The notes under the pieces were generated by a model that was given only the letters and a program-made list of their open reading frames with translations, did not search any database and had not been told where the DNA came from. DNA of 37,632 nt, from positions 1-37,632 of the forward strand of contig JAUPKJ010000035.1 in the NCBI GenBank assembly GCA_030837505.1, in the 5' to 3' direction. A program made the position numbers and the translations under genes. The stretch is from Actinomycetota bacterium. Lineage in GTDB: Bacteria > Actinomycetota > Actinomycetes > Actinomycetales > Kineosporiaceae. This document shows, one piece after another, positions 28,621 to 34,361 of this stretch; position 1 is the stretch's first letter, and every line of letters starts with the position of its first letter.

Positions 28621-29600
28621 ACGGTCCGGGGGATCGTGAGCAGTACGACGTCCTCGTACTCGGGGAGGTCCTGGTCGAACTGTCGTCGGACGGTCCGTGG
28701 GAGGACGGCGCCACCGTTCGGCTGGGGTTCTCGGGCGACGCCCTCAACGCGGCGGCCGCCGCAGCCGCGGCCGGGGCTCGTACGGGGCTGCTGGCACGGG
28801 TCCCCGACGACGAATTGGGTGATCGGATCGTCGCGAAGATCTCCGACCTCGGGGTGTGCACGGACCTGATTCGTCGATTTCCCGGCCAGCACGGGATCTA
28901 CCTGCAGCGGGCGGATCCGAGCGGGACCCTCAGCTTCTTCTATGCCCGCTCGGGCAGCGTGGGCTCGCAACTGTGTCCCGGAGACCTGCCGCGGCCTGTC
29001 CTCGAACGGGCCGGGGTGGTGCTGGCCAGTGGTATCGCCTGTGCGATCTCCGACTCGGCTGCCGCGGCCGTCCTGGAGGCGTCCCGGCTGGCCCGCCGCT
29101 TCGTCTACGACCCCAACTGGCGCCCTGCCCTGATCTCCGCAGGGCGCGCTGCCGAGGGGCTCAGGCTCCTGGCCCCCCGGGCCGCCCTGGTGACGCCCTC
29201 CTGGCCGGGAGAGATCTCGGCTCTCCTGGCGCCCGTGCCGGCGACCGGAGCGCTGCGGACCCCGGCGGAAGCTGCGGCGGCCGTGCTCGGCCTGGGGGCC
29301 GGAGCTGTCGCGGTGACCTGTGGATCGGAGGGCGTCGTACTGGACACGGGTCCTGGGCCTGTACGAATTCCCGCCTGTACACCGCCCGCAGTGGTTGACC
29401 AGACCGGAGCGGGGGACGTTCTGGCCGGCGCGGTCTCGGCCCGTTGGGCCCTGGGGGACGATCTGCCGGAGGCCGTCCGTCTCGGCAGTGCTGCGGCAGC
29501 ACTGTCCTTGGCGGGAGCGGGGGGCACGGGACACCTCCCCTCCCTGGAGGAGACCCGGCTGCTGGCTCGGGGTGGGCCTGCGGGGAAGGCCCCTCGATGA
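28617..29600 (+). CDS. kdgK: 2-keto-3-deoxygluconate kinase (PfkB family)
   Basis: This 327-residue sugar kinase phosphorylates KDG to KDPG, linking ManD/UxaA to the aldolase. Sequence features are the opening [31 protein letters not shown] (sugar-binding region), and the PfkB signature [14 protein letters not shown] with catalytic Asp267. A Gln replaces the more usual residue before TGAGD, which is not unusual in the family. GTG 28617 overlaps the manD stop; GTG 28614 is an alternative. The stop overlaps uxaA (ATGA). The specific substrate is assigned from context. Confidence 0.88.
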
Positions 29601-31108
29601 CGGCCCGTGGGCCGACGAATCTCGTCCGTCTGCATCCCGGTGACGATGTGGCCGTCGCCGTTCGGGACCTGCCCGACGGGAGCGGGGGGAAAGTCCCGGC
29701 CGGTCACAAGGTCGCGGTCAGGAACCTGGCGGCCGGAGACCTCGTACGCAAGTACGGACAGGTGATCGGGCAGGCCACCCGACCGATCCGCACCGGGGAA
29801 CACGTCCACAGTCACAATCTGGCGTCACCCGGTGAGGGGCGGGCCCGGCGTCCGGCCGCGCCCGGGCCCTGGGTCCCGCCGCCGCCTCTGCCACGGCCCG
29901 CGGCGGACCTGCCTCGGACCTTCCTGGGGATTCCCCGGGCCGACGGCCGGTTCGCGACCCGGAACGTCATCGCGGTGATGGGCAGCGTCAGCTGCGCGAC
30001 GTCCGTTGTGCGCGCCGTGGCGGCCCGTTGCGCGTCGAGGCTGCCCGAGGGCGTGGACGCCGTCGTCCCCCTCACCCATCCGGGGGGCTGCGGCACGGCC
30101 TCCCACGGCCGGGGGTGGGAGGTCCTGCGCAGAACTCTCCTGGGGTACGCGCGCAACCCCAATGTGGGCGGCCTGCTGCTGGTCGGGCTCGGCTGTGAGG
30201 TGAACGCCGTCCACGGCCTGCTGGCGGAGCTGGACCGGTCGCAGGGCCCCCCGGCCGCCGGCCTGACGATCCAGGACTCCGGCGGTTCGTCGGCCTCGGT
30301 CGAGGCCGGCGAAAGGCTGGTCCACGAACTGGCCCGCTCGATCGGCGACGTCGTGAGGGTCCCGGCCGGGGTCGAACATCTGGTCGTCGGACTGCAGTGC
30401 GGGGGTTCGGACGCCTGGTCCGGGGTGAGTGCGAATCCGGTCCTCGGCTCTGCCGTGGATCTGCTGGTGGCGGCCGGGGGAACGGCTGTGCTGGCCGAGA
30501 CCCCCGAGATCTTCGGTGCCGAACATCTCCTGGCCGCAAGGTCCCTGACCCCCCACGTCGCGGCCGCCCTGCTGGAACGCGTGGAGTGGTGGCGGCAGTA
30601 CACCGCGGACAACGGCGTAGCCCTGGAGGCCAACCCCTCCCCGGGGAACCACGCCGGTGGGATCACCACGATCCGGGAGAAGTCCCTCGGCGCGGTCTCC
30701 AAGGCGGGCCGGGCACCTCTGACGGCAGTGCTCGACTACGCGGAGCAGATCCCCCGCACAGGGCTGGTCTTCATGGACACGCCCGGCTACGACCCGGTGT
30801 CCCTCACCGGGCTCGTCGCCGGTGGCGCCACCCTGATCTGTTTCACGACAGGGAGAGGCACCGTGCTCAGCAGCCGGATGGTCCCCACCGTGAAAATCGT
30901 CTCGAACAAGGCGACGGCCCGACGGTTGGCACACGACATCGACCTGGACTGTTCCGGGATCGTCACGGACGGCGACGGGGTACTCCCCTGGGGCAGACGC
31001 TTGTACGACCTGATGCTCCGGACCGCCACCGGCCGACGCTCCAGCGGGGAGAACATCGGTCTCGACGGAGAGGAACTGGTCCCGTGGCAGCTCGGAGCGG
31101 TGTTGTGA
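29597..31108 (+). CDS. uxaA: Altronate dehydratase-type enzyme (UxaA family)
   Basis: This is a 503-residue UxaA/GarD-type dehydratase. The N-terminal SAF domain (about 1-75: VRLHPGDDVAVAVRDL, VPAGHKVAVRNLAAGD) is joined by a Pro-rich linker to the catalytic part. That part starts FLGIPRADGRFATRNVIAVM and continues with THPGGCGTASHG, VGLGCEVNAV, LQCGGSDAWSGVSANP, ETPEIFGAEHLL and NPSPGNHAGGITTIREKSLG. It turns D-altronate into 2-keto-3-deoxygluconate, the galacturonate branch parallel to ManD, or acts on a related aldarate. ATG 29597 overlaps the kinase stop. The linker is longer and more Pro-rich than usual as far as I can judge. Confidence 0.88.
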   Translation: MTARGPTNLVRLHPGDDVAVAVRDLPDGSGGKVPAGHKVAVRNLAAGDLVRKYGQVIGQATRPIRTGEHVHSHNLASPGEGRARRPAAPGPWVPPPPLPRPAADLPRTFLGIPRADGRFATRNVIAVMGSVSCATSVVRAVAARCASRLPEGVDAVVPLTHPGGCGTASHGRGWEVLRRTLLGYARNPNVGGLLLVGLGCEVNAVHGLLAELDRSQGPPAAGLTIQDSGGSSASVEAGERLVHELARSIGDVVRVPAGVEHLVVGLQCGGSDAWSGVSANPVLGSAVDLLVAAGGTAVLAETPEIFGAEHLLAARSLTPHVAAALLERVEWWRQYTADNGVALEANPSPGNHAGGITTIREKSLGAVSKAGRAPLTAVLDYAEQIPRTGLVFMDTPGYDPVSLTGLVAGGATLICFTTGRGTVLSSRMVPTVKIVSNKATARRLAHDIDLDCSGIVTDGDGVLPWGRRLYDLMLRTATGRRSSGENIGLDGEELVPWQLGAVL

Positions 31109-32607
31109 ACGGTCGTCCCGGCCCTCGTCTGACCTCGGCCCGTCTCGCCGAAGTGATCGCGGGCCCGGACGTGGCCCTGCCGGCCCGGCGTCCGGACCGC
31201 ACGGGAATCGTGCATCTGGGGATCGGGGCCTTCCACCGCGCCCACCAGGCAGTGTTCACCGAGGACGCCGCGGCGCTCACGGGGGAGGGCTGCTGGGGAA
31301 TCTGCGGGGTCACCCTGCGGTCGGCCTCCGTCGTGGAGCAACTGGAGCCCCAGGACTGCCTGTACACCGTGTTGCAGCAGGGGGCGGGGGCCCGCACGGC
31401 CCGGGTCGTCGGCTCGGTGAGGGAGGTTCTGTTCGCGAAGGCCGACCCGAACGCCGTCCCCGAACGGATCGCCGACCCGGCGGTGCACGTCGTGACCCTG
31501 ACGGTCACGGAGAAGGGATACCGGCGGGGCGCCGACGGTGGACTGGATCTTGACGATCCGGTGGTGCACGCCGATCTGGGGCGGGATCCGGCGGGGCCGC
31601 GCAGCGTCGTCGGTTTGCTGGTGGCCGGGCTCGAACAGCGGCTGAGGGCGGGGGGAGAGCCCCTGAGCGTCGTCTGCTGCGACAACCTCACGGCCAACGG
31701 CCGGATCCTGCGCCGACTGGTATTGGACTTCTGTTCGGCTTCGGGTCCGGGCGGGACGGCGGCGAGGGAAGATCTCGCACGGTGGGTGGACGACCGGGTG
31801 AGCTTTCCCTCCACCGTGGTCGACCGGATCGTGCCCGCCACGACCGAGCAGGACCGCCGGACGGTCTGCGAGTTGCTCGGGGTCCAGGACGAAGGGGTCG
31901 TCGTTGCCGAGCCCTTCCGGCAATGGGTGATCGAGGACTCCTTCGCCGGGGCCCGCCCCTCCTGGGAACTCGCGGGTGCCCTCCTGGTCGGCGACGTGGC
32001 GCCGTGGGAGGCCGTGAAACTGCGTCTGTTGAACGCGACCCACTCGACGCTGGCCTACCTGGGTGCCCTCAGGGGGTACGAGACCGTGGCCCGGGCCGTG
32101 GCAGACCCCGAGCTGGAGAGGGTCGCCCGCGAACTGATGTCCCAGGACGCAGCTGCGACGCTGCGGGTGCCCGAGGGCCTGGACGTGGCCGACTACTGCG
32201 AACAGGTGATGGAACGTTTCGCCGATCCCGCTCTGAGGCACAGGACGACCCAGATCGCCATGGACGGCTCGCAGAAGCTGCCCCTACGGCTGCTGGGGAT
32301 CATTTCAGAACGCTTGGCGGCGGGAGAGAAACCACTGCGGGCGGCACTCGGGGTGTCGGCCTGGATGGTCTACGTGGCGAGGGCTGCTGCCGGGCAGAGT
32401 GCCCCGGGCGGTTTGTCCCTGCCCCTGCAGGACCCTCTCCGGGACCGGCTGTGTTCGGTGGCGACGGCCGGATCCACCCCCCGCCGTCTGGTCGAGGGGC
32501 TGCTGGGGATCCCGGAGATCTTCGGGGCGGAGCTTCCGGAGGACACCGCGTTCCGGAGCCTGCTCACGGAGCAGGTGACGGCTCTCGGAGCCGGCCGCCT
32601 GCCCTGA
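31105..32607 (+). CDS. uxuB: D-mannonate oxidoreductase / fructuronate reductase (mannitol dehydrogenase family)
   Basis: This 500-residue polyol/uronate dehydrogenase has the NAD-binding GIGAFHRAHQAVF (residues 39-51), VCCDNLTANG, and the family catalytic triad Lys305-Asn310-His313 in KLRLLNATHST. It reduces D-fructuronate to D-mannonate with NAD(P)H. Because only one such reductase is in the operon alongside both ManD and UxaA, it may also take tagaturonate, or a UxaB lies elsewhere. GTG 31105 overlaps the uxaA stop (GTGA). It is the last gene of the transporter-catabolic operon, and no clear terminator follows before the CsoR-type operator. Confidence 0.9.
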   Translation: MNGRPGPRLTSARLAEVIAGPDVALPARRPDRTGIVHLGIGAFHRAHQAVFTEDAAALTGEGCWGICGVTLRSASVVEQLEPQDCLYTVLQQGAGARTARVVGSVREVLFAKADPNAVPERIADPAVHVVTLTVTEKGYRRGADGGLDLDDPVVHADLGRDPAGPRSVVGLLVAGLEQRLRAGGEPLSVVCCDNLTANGRILRRLVLDFCSASGPGGTAAREDLARWVDDRVSFPSTVVDRIVPATTEQDRRTVCELLGVQDEGVVVAEPFRQWVIEDSFAGARPSWELAGALLVGDVAPWEAVKLRLLNATHSTLAYLGALRGYETVARAVADPELERVARELMSQDAAATLRVPEGLDVADYCEQVMERFADPALRHRTTQIAMDGSQKLPLRLLGIISERLAAGEKPLRAALGVSAWMVYVARAAAGQSAPGGLSLPLQDPLRDRLCSVATAGSTPRRLVEGLLGIPEIFGAELPEDTAFRSLLTEQVTALGAGRLP

Positions 32608-32626
32608 CCGGCCACACTGCCCACGC

Positions 32627-32673
32627 ATACCCCCTGGGGTATACTCACCAGTGAGATCCCCCCTTCGGGGATC
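32627..32673 (+). promoter_or_regulatory. CsoR-family-type operator, -10 box and leader hairpin
   Basis: ATACCCC-CT-GGGGTAT (32627-32642) is a perfect 7-bp inverted repeat of the type bound by CsoR/RicR/CstR repressors (Cu(I) or persulfide sensors). It overlaps a good -10 box, TATACT (32640-32645); the -35 is weak (CTGCCC, 32617-32622). A leader hairpin, GATCCCC (32655-32661) with GGGGATC (32667-32673), follows before the small Cys-rich gene. No csoR gene is in the window. Confidence 0.7.
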
Positions 32674-32701
32674 CTTTCCGACACTGTGAGGAGAGTCCGA
32701 C

Positions 32702-32818
32702 ATGTGCAGCACGGTCGCGTGCCCCACCTGCAAGAAGATCACCTGGACCGGCTGCGGCAGGCATGTCGAGGAGGCCTTGGCTCCGGTCCCCCCGGAGAAT
32801 CGCTGCACCTGCCGCTGA
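32702..32818 (+). CDS. 38-residue Cys-rich mini protein (zinc-ribbon-like)
   Basis: The ORF encodes a 38-residue protein with six cysteines: MCSTVACPTCKK, a central TWTGCGRHVEE and a final NRCTCR. The CPTC and CTC pairs look like a small zinc ribbon or a thiolate metal site. It resembles short, widely conserved actinobacterial proteins of unknown function (pattern recognition, not a search). A GGAG ribosome binding site precedes ATG 32702, with a CsoR-type operator and -10 box upstream, so copper or sulfide stress induction is plausible. A function in binding or buffering Cu(I) or Zn, or as a redox peptide, is inference. Confidence 0.7.
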   Translation: MCSTVACPTCKKITWTGCGRHVEEALAPVPPENRCTCR

Positions 32819-33652
32819 GCGTCCGGACCCACGCCCGCCCGTCCCTCCCGTCGGGAAACCACGTCGGACGAGAAACTTCCCCACGGATCCGAGAAGCCAC
32901 AGGCCGAGCCCGGCGCTCGTCCCGGCACTCGTCCCGGAGCCCGTTCAGCTCGCCGGGCACACCGAATCCGGACATTCGAACGGGTCCGTTCCGGATTCTC
33001 CAAATGCATTTTGCCCCATTCTGCACCTTTCCCTGCGTGCAATGTTTTTTTGCGCAACTTTTCCCCGGGGTAGGTCCTGAGCCCTCCCGGACTACCGGGC
33101 GGATCAGCCCTCCCACCGCTCGGCGGTGCCCTGGACGCGTAGCTTTCAACCCCGGGTTCCCCGCCGCGTACGGACAAACATGAAAAGGATCGCTCCCGGC
33201 AGGACACCGGAGCGAGTTCGAGCAACCGCGTTCCGTATCGGGGGGCATTCCCTCGGGCAGCTCCGATCGGCGAAACAGGAACAGGAATCGGGAAACAGCC
33301 GAATCAATACCGATCTGCCTGTCCGCCTCCGGGAGAGAGATCCTTCCCCGCAGCGCCCGGACCTTTCATGAAGATTCCCCGAGATCCCGGTTCCACGACA
33401 TCCGCGAGCCCTGCGCTCTACACTTTCCACGTCGTCCCACTGTTCGCAGGGACGTGATGGTATTTGCATGCCGACGACTCTTCCCGTCCTCATGCTTGCC
33501 GATCGATCAACCGTGCCGTGGTATGACGAGAAGGTCCTGGACCGAGCATTCGTCGAGTGTCCGCGCGACTGCGGACAGGAATCCCCGAGATCTGATCCAC
33601 CCGTTGACCCAGGTATCCGCGGGGTCCACGGAATCAGCCGGACATACCATCC
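32819..33652. other. Long intergenic region without supported genes
   Basis: About 830 bases between the mini Cys protein and the first DUF4360 promoter. Several short open frames exist, but none shows family features or a matching ribosome binding site. The stretch around 33000-33060 is locally T-rich (a run of seven T) in otherwise GC-rich DNA. A 12-bp triple repeat lies at 32909-32944. It could hold an untranslated RNA or decayed sequence; I see no direct sign of either. Confidence 0.5.
32909..32944. repeat. Three 12-bp tandem repeats
   Basis: CCCGGCGCTCGT, CCCGGCACTCGT and CCCGGAGCCCGT lie end to end just downstream of the mini Cys-rich gene. The role is unknown. Confidence 0.6.
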
Positions 33653-33725: not shown

Positions 33726-34361
33726 ATGCTTAAAGTGATGGCCATTGGCAGTTTGGCTCTATCGATGTTCGTGCCTCTGCCGGACGCCACTCCGCCCACA
33801 GTCACGCCGCCTGGCGACAAAATTGTCATCGAACTCGTCACGGTGAACGGCTCCGGCTGCAAGGAAGGAACAGCCAAGGTCGCCGTGAACCTCGACAACA
33901 CGGCTTTCACCGTGACCTACAGCGATTTCCTCGCCCAGGCCGGTGGCGGGGTCAACTCGATCGAATCGCGCAAGAACTGCCAGCTGAACCTCCGCGTCCA
34001 CGTGCCCAACGGATTCACCTACGCGATCAGCCAGACCGACTACCGCGGCTACGCCTTCCTCGCGAAGGGCGCCTCCGCGATCCAGCGCGCCAACTACTAC
34101 TTCGGCGGACTGTCAACGACCGCTTACTCAGTGCACAACTTCAAGGGCCCGTTGGACGACGACTGGCAGACCACCGACATCGTCGATTACCCCGCCCTGA
34201 GCTACCTGCCCTGCGGTGAGCAGCGGAACCTCAACATCAACACCGAGCTGCGGGCCAGCGCCGGCACCTCGACCCCCAGCGTGACGAACTTCATCACGAT
34301 GGACTCCACCGACACCTCTCTGTCGACCACGTACCACTTTGCGTGGAAGGAATGTAAGTAG
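33726..34361 (+). CDS. Secreted DUF4360 protein, copy 1
   Basis: This 211-residue exported protein belongs to DUF4360, a family of small secreted proteins known from actinobacteria and fungi with no established role. It has a short signal (MLKVMAIGSLALSMFVP) and then VNGSGC, FTVTYSDFLAQAG, RKNCQL, FTYAISQTDYRGYAFL, YLPCGEQRNLNINTEL and a final FAWKECK. Four cysteines (in VNGSGC, RKNC, LPCG, KEC) are shared with the neighbouring copy and likely form two disulfides. ATG follows CGGAGGGAACTTC. It stands as its own transcription unit, with promoter before and an 11-bp stem terminator after. By eye it is about 60% identical to the second copy. Confidence 0.85.
   Translation: MLKVMAIGSLALSMFVPLPDATPPTVTPPGDKIVIELVTVNGSGCKEGTAKVAVNLDNTAFTVTYSDFLAQAGGGVNSIESRKNCQLNLRVHVPNGFTYAISQTDYRGYAFLAKGASAIQRANYYFGGLSTTAYSVHNFKGPLDDDWQTTDIVDYPALSYLPCGEQRNLNINTELRASAGTSTPSVTNFITMDSTDTSLSTTYHFAWKECK

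Follow-up and report, generated by a model that had tools for sequence, protein, structure and literature searches.

We have found, in a 37,632-nucleotide stretch of actinobacterial DNA (the window), a gene for a six-cysteine protein of 38 amino acids preceded by an operator of the CstR/CsoR type. Because the same pairing of operator and mini-gene recurs in many relatives, the protein is probably an overlooked part of actinobacterial sulfur-stress defence. The reading that we favour, with a probability of about 0.55, is that the gene is a member of a CstR (persulfide) regulon and that it encodes a metal/thiol protein that accepts or buffers sulfane sulfur. The regulation of the gene is well supported by sequence; an activity of this kind is what we infer for its product.

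The gene occupies positions 32702-32818 of the forward strand, stop codon included, and its translation is MCSTVACPTCKKITWTGCGRHVEEALAPVPPENRCTCR. The six cysteines (C2, C7, C10, C18, C35 and C37) include one CPTC and one CTC pair, and the reading frame is thus as the first-pass annotation had described it. A good ribosome-binding site, GAGGAGAG, is located at 32688-32695 on the same strand. Since the reading frame is conserved in relatives, we regard it as a real gene. Searches of Pfam, including its metallothionein models, and of NCBIfam and PHROGs gave no match to the window protein. When 18 family members were scanned against the family libraries, the only matches were at chance level and to single members; in Pfam there were just two of these, to unrelated models, and none to TusA. 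A profile search of the PDB produced a single chance match (E 0.12). The gene stands alone among sugar-acid genes. Upstream, at 29444-32607, are genes for an altronate/galactarate dehydratase and for a mannitol-dehydrogenase-family protein nearest to fructuronate reductase, and downstream, at 33726-34361, is a gene for a secreted-looking DUF4360 protein; no tie to the mini-gene was seen for any of them.

The mini-protein belongs to a widespread actinobacterial family that has no Pfam or NCBIfam model. In genome searches centred on this one phylum, relatives were present in 34 of 58 related genomes and, across the phylum, in 15 of 149 genomes by profile search and 16 of 149 by protein search, the match in one of the latter (G037) being partial and without a start. 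A pattern scan of contigs gave at least 593 stretches, of which 587 were confirmed, and the best 80 of these were taken as the locus set; 79 of the 80 are Actinomycetota by title and one is an Acidobacteria MAG. Relatives were also found in 84 of 72,556 plasmid records and in 1 of 50,697 phage records, and they may occur in eukaryotes as well. Two viral contigs carry one 37-aa relative each (L181:4001-4111 and L182:4001-4111); no CsoR-type site was found in these loci. It is plausible, as remarked earlier, that gene callers readily overlook a gene of this kind: among the 40 plasmid matches listed (of 84), 33 have no annotated feature, 5 are annotated as "hypothetical protein" and 2 come without any annotation, according to a gene table that is stated to be incomplete. 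Searches of an open-access library turned up no paper whose title or abstract describes this family, and a text search there with six family heptapeptides matched one paper, on malaria.

The operator in the window, ATACCCCCTGGGGTAT, is a 16-bp palindrome at 32627-32642 of the form TAC-N8-GTA, and corresponds to the ATACCCC-CT-GGGGTAT noted at first pass. With up to 3 mismatches allowed, the window contains three matches (one weak site, and the palindrome counted once on each strand), compared with 0.14 expected, and this number was reached in 1 of 100 shuffles. The exact sequence occurs only once in the source genome, a draft of 434 contigs and 4.52 Mb. The palindrome had also been said to overlap a TATACT box; the overlap consists of three bases shared with the downstream arm (TATACT at 32640-32645, forward strand). 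Comparison with homologs supports this box as a putative -10 element: of 72 homologous operators, 28 have TATAnT after the downstream arm, compared with 4 when the sequence is read outward from the upstream arm. There is no good candidate for a -35 box 15-19 bp upstream of TATACT, and a sigma-70 consensus scan of 32560-33000 found no promoter, so that the -10 assignment rests on the homolog comparison. A short hairpin in the presumed leader (32655-32673, forward strand) was rejected as an element, its stability being within chance (z -0.94; 34 of 200 shuffles folded equally well or better).

Operator and gene are conserved together, a property that the first-pass annotation had put forward as a check on its proposal. 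The count was made on 138 family genes, distinct over -60 to +60 and related by descent rather than independent, with any gene closer than 150 bp to the end of its locus left out. TACC-N6-GGTA (that is, N8 spacing) lies within 150 bp upstream of 72 of them, and all 72 sites have the longer form TACCC-N4-GGGTA; shuffles average 0.15 sites, and 3 of the 138 genes have one in the 150 bp past the stop. Other spacings are rare, with N9 before one gene and N7 before two. An N8 site is absent within 150 bp upstream of 66 genes, and many of the site-less genes in the 80-locus set adjoin a CstR or sulfur gene. Around 80 family genes there are 99 operator sites in 750 kb, compared with 0 in 200 kb of controls; the controls are 20 stretches of 10 kb at coordinates of our own choosing, taken from relatives of the window's genome and not from the 80 genomes. 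The exact operator is present in 44 of the best 80 named-contig loci (of at least 587 confirmed), which by hand count represent 20 named genera. Several variants of the upstream region were seen. In four loci (L024, L027, L034 and L036) the operator touches the start codon, in the arrangement GATACCC....GGGTATG, which would suit a leaderless message; four genes are at distance 13. Another palindrome, ATGTCCGGACAT, precedes the gene in L030 and L032, from two genomes without a DUF156 gene, and elements resembling TGTCCGTACAA precede it in L033, L129, L130 and L132.

The neighbourhoods of the family genes point to the same type of control. A CstR-type (DUF156) regulator is encoded within 5 kb in 45 of the best 80 loci, and in 22 of these the distance is no more than 500 bp, whereas none of the 20 control stretches has one; the flanks are partial, extending at least 4.5 kb on both sides in 64 of the 80. 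Genes for MBL-type, CoADR-like or rhodanese enzymes were found in 55 of these loci, compared with 1 of 20 controls. An operator (N7-N9) or a CstR/sulfur neighbour is present in 78 of the best 80 loci, L104 and L109 having neither, and 19 of the 47 loci that bear such an operator have no CstR or sulfur gene within 5 kb. In two loci from the window's own bacterial family (L155 and L159) the order is operator, mini-gene, CoADR-like gene. Two others from that family (L158 and L163) each contain a pair of mini-gene paralogs, of 38 and 57 aa, which are separated by a few kb within a single sulfur-gene cluster and have an operator each. Clustering of the neighbouring ORFs returned mostly shadow ORFs; the remainder includes a cluster from 14 loci that we take to be thioredoxin-like from its WCGPC motif. 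In all 57 linked DUF156 regulators the position of the copper-binding His is taken by Ala, Gly or Ser; 55 of them were read by script, whereas L041, which the script had placed in the wrong register, and L170, which it had not matched, were read by eye. Control by a CsoR-family repressor, as originally proposed, is therefore strongly supported by sequence, the operator being kept with the gene and CstR-type regulators being often adjacent.

The window's own genome has five other sites with one or two mismatches to the operator. Three of them precede sulfur genes, namely an MBL-rhodanese fusion (L002), a rhodanese with a YgaP-like membrane part (L005) and a CoADR-like enzyme whose score is under the NCBIfam cut-offs (L006). 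The other two do not: by inspection, one is within an acetolactate-synthase-like ORF (L003) and one is beside an apparent tRNA (L004). The genome also encodes a CstR-type DUF156 protein with two cysteines and without the copper His. Its gene is cut by the ends of contigs C419 and C58, which overlap, and was read through the overlap; the part on C419 scores 77.9 bits against PF02583. A one-mismatch operator site was seen by eye about 200 bp upstream of this gene.

The distribution of the mini-protein is nevertheless wider than its control by CstR. In the phylum sample, family members are present in 11 of 113 genomes with a DUF156 gene, a count that takes in copper and other regulator types, and in 4 of 36 genomes without one; the other 102 genomes with a DUF156 gene have no family member. 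Presence of the family thus does not track DUF156 across this sample, and the tie of the protein to CstR is not universal. Judged by eye, 10 of the 11 family-bearing genomes with DUF156 show an operator or a sulfur/CstR neighbour (the exception is G097), compared with none of the 4 without it (G024, G063, G069 and G123, the last assigned from its absence among the matches listed). This difference gives a Fisher p of 0.0037, with kinship among the genomes ignored.

C2, C7, C10, C18, H21 and C35 are invariant in all 18 rows of an alignment of the family, which leaves out the partial match from G037 (L038) because its start is not at Met. A larger set of 135 proteins was collected with a script pattern that demands C7, C10, C18 and C35, so the invariance of these residues in that set is circular and the 18 rows were used instead. 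The pattern fixed nothing at the last ligand-like position, and this position is Cys or His in all 135 proteins (CxC in 48, CxxH in 81 and CxxxH in 6). C2 is absent in one of the 135 (L100). The exchange of Cys and His at the last position suggests a zinc-like site, and it suggests that some of the six thiols bind metal and are not free. AlphaFold predicted a beta-beta-alpha unit for the mini-protein with moderate confidence (pLDDT 81, pTM 0.42), and the values for a 57-residue homolog were similar (pLDDT 77, pTM 0.44). Foldseek gave no significant fold match (E 4.8 or worse) and VIA-align returned nothing with a Z of 2 or more. Among the five Foldseek hits, none of them significant, four are to zinc-binding domains, the CW domain being counted as one of these.

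These observations can be accommodated in the following scheme. In unstressed cells a CstR-type repressor, with two cysteines and no copper His, would occupy the operator and mask the -10 element. Persulfides or polysulfides would modify the thiols of the repressor and cause it to leave the DNA, and the mini-gene would then be expressed along with the MBL-rhodanese fusion, the CoA-disulfide-reductase-like enzyme and the rhodanese, which share the operator. The product probably begins at Cys2, Met being removed, and may fold as a small beta-beta-alpha unit around a metal, most likely zinc, held by C7, C10, C35 and C37, with His38 in place of C37 in many homologs. C2, C18 and H21, which are conserved as well, could accept or pass on sulfane sulfur, and the mini-protein would in this way provide the regulon's sulfur enzymes with a small soluble acceptor or buffer.

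The main rival to this reading is a role in zinc supply. Sulfide ties up zinc, and a zinc-thiolate protein of the regulon might act as a buffer or chaperone that keeps zinc available, the carriage of sulfur being incidental. A metal site would allow either Cys or His at the last position, zinc-binding domains predominate among the Foldseek hits, and a zinc-limitation response to sulfide is described for S. aureus in the available text of PMC5480029. However, those hits have E-values of 4.8 or worse, VIA-align has nothing to add to them, and C2 and C18 are in excess of a single four-ligand site; we consider a role confined to zinc rather improbable. It is also unlikely, in our estimation, that the protein carries no sulfur at all and instead binds and adjusts a CoADR-like, rhodanese or MBL enzyme as an inhibitor, adaptor or stabiliser. 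In L155 and L159 the mini-gene directly adjoins a CoADR-like gene, and certain other loci have a CoADR, MBL or rhodanese gene next to it, as would be expected of such a partner protein, but no single partner stands out (CoADR in 26, MBL in 28 and rhodanese in 15 of the best 80 loci), the copy in the window stands alone, and the invariant Cys and His residues are better suited to chemistry or metal binding than to surface contact.

The first-pass annotation had offered either Cu(I) or persulfide as the signal. A copper buffer resembling a metallothionein and controlled by a copper CsoR, in the manner of MymT under RicR, would account for six cysteines in 38 residues, and a copper-type csoR is indeed present in the genome, next to a gene that is named CopA-like from its sequence. 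The site upstream of this csoR, ATACCGGTGGGGGGTAT, has N9 spacing; as the N9 pattern is little enriched in the genome (11 places, compared with 7 in a backward control), the assignment of the csoR-copA site rests on its position. N9 is also the spacing of streptomycete copper CsoR sites, given as TAC-N9-GTA in the available text of PMC3902906. The window site, with N8, does not fit this spacing, and the family sites are N8 in 72 cases and N9 in one. Moreover, none of the 57 linked regulators has the copper His, CopA-like matches occur in 5 of the best 80 loci compared with 1 of 20 controls, and a Pfam metallothionein match is absent. In S. coelicolor, the site ATACCn6GGTAT, from which polysulfide releases the repressor, has N8 spacing (available text of PMC7533328). 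Persulfide is thus favoured and copper disfavoured as the signal by the N8 spacing, by the regulators without the copper His and by the operator shared with sulfur genes. Copper control was rejected on operator spacing, regulator type and neighbour genes, and a copper buffer is a very improbable identity for the protein. Short ORFs are common in the GC-rich DNA of the window, but a chance ORF beside a chance palindrome is excluded by conservation, protein and operator being kept together in 20 named genera.

The system that we propose resembles several known ones in part. MymT-like metallothioneins are, like the mini-protein, tiny, cysteine-rich and under a CsoR-family repressor; they differ in being controlled by copper and in their Cys/His pattern, and the mini-protein has no match to a metallothionein family in Pfam. 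CstA has a TusA-like part. TusA-type carriers (available text of PMC9774590) have the role of small persulfide carrier that we can only propose for the mini-protein, which differs from TusA in having no Pfam TusA match, in being much smaller and in having several conserved cysteines and one His. In S. coelicolor, ScCsoR (SCO0620) is a CsoR-family protein with two cysteines and the operator ATACCn6GGTAT, and it controls a persulfide dioxygenase and a rhodanese among other targets; none of the four genes of its circuit, as given in the available text of PMC7533328, encodes a mini-protein. In S. aureus, CstR is a persulfide-sensing CsoR-family repressor over persulfide-oxidising and sulfurtransferase genes, and the cst genes tauE, cstA, cstB and sqr include no such mini-protein in the available texts of PMC5480029 and PMC9774590. 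The streptomycete copper CsoR regulon shares with our system a related repressor family and a G-tract palindrome, but its sites are N9 rather than N8 and it governs the csoR and copZA operons (available text of PMC3902906).

Persulfide regulons have so far been described as consisting of a sensor and enzymes. The organisms considered here have mycothiol in place of glutathione. More tentatively than for the gene in the window, the family as a whole (37-75 residues, with a Cys beside the start Met) might be a regular component of the persulfide response of actinobacteria that annotation has missed and that has not yet been described: a zinc-stapled sulfane-sulfur relay for lineage-specific persulfide enzymes, which would be controlled in other ways in organisms that lack CstR and which certain phages carry as well. 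A short gene with an operator that obeys a sharp spacing rule makes these proposals cheap to test. If they are true, a conserved mini-protein that has no Pfam or NCBIfam model and lacks annotation in most of the plasmid matches listed would add to the persulfide regulon a missing carrier, buffer or zinc-handling step.
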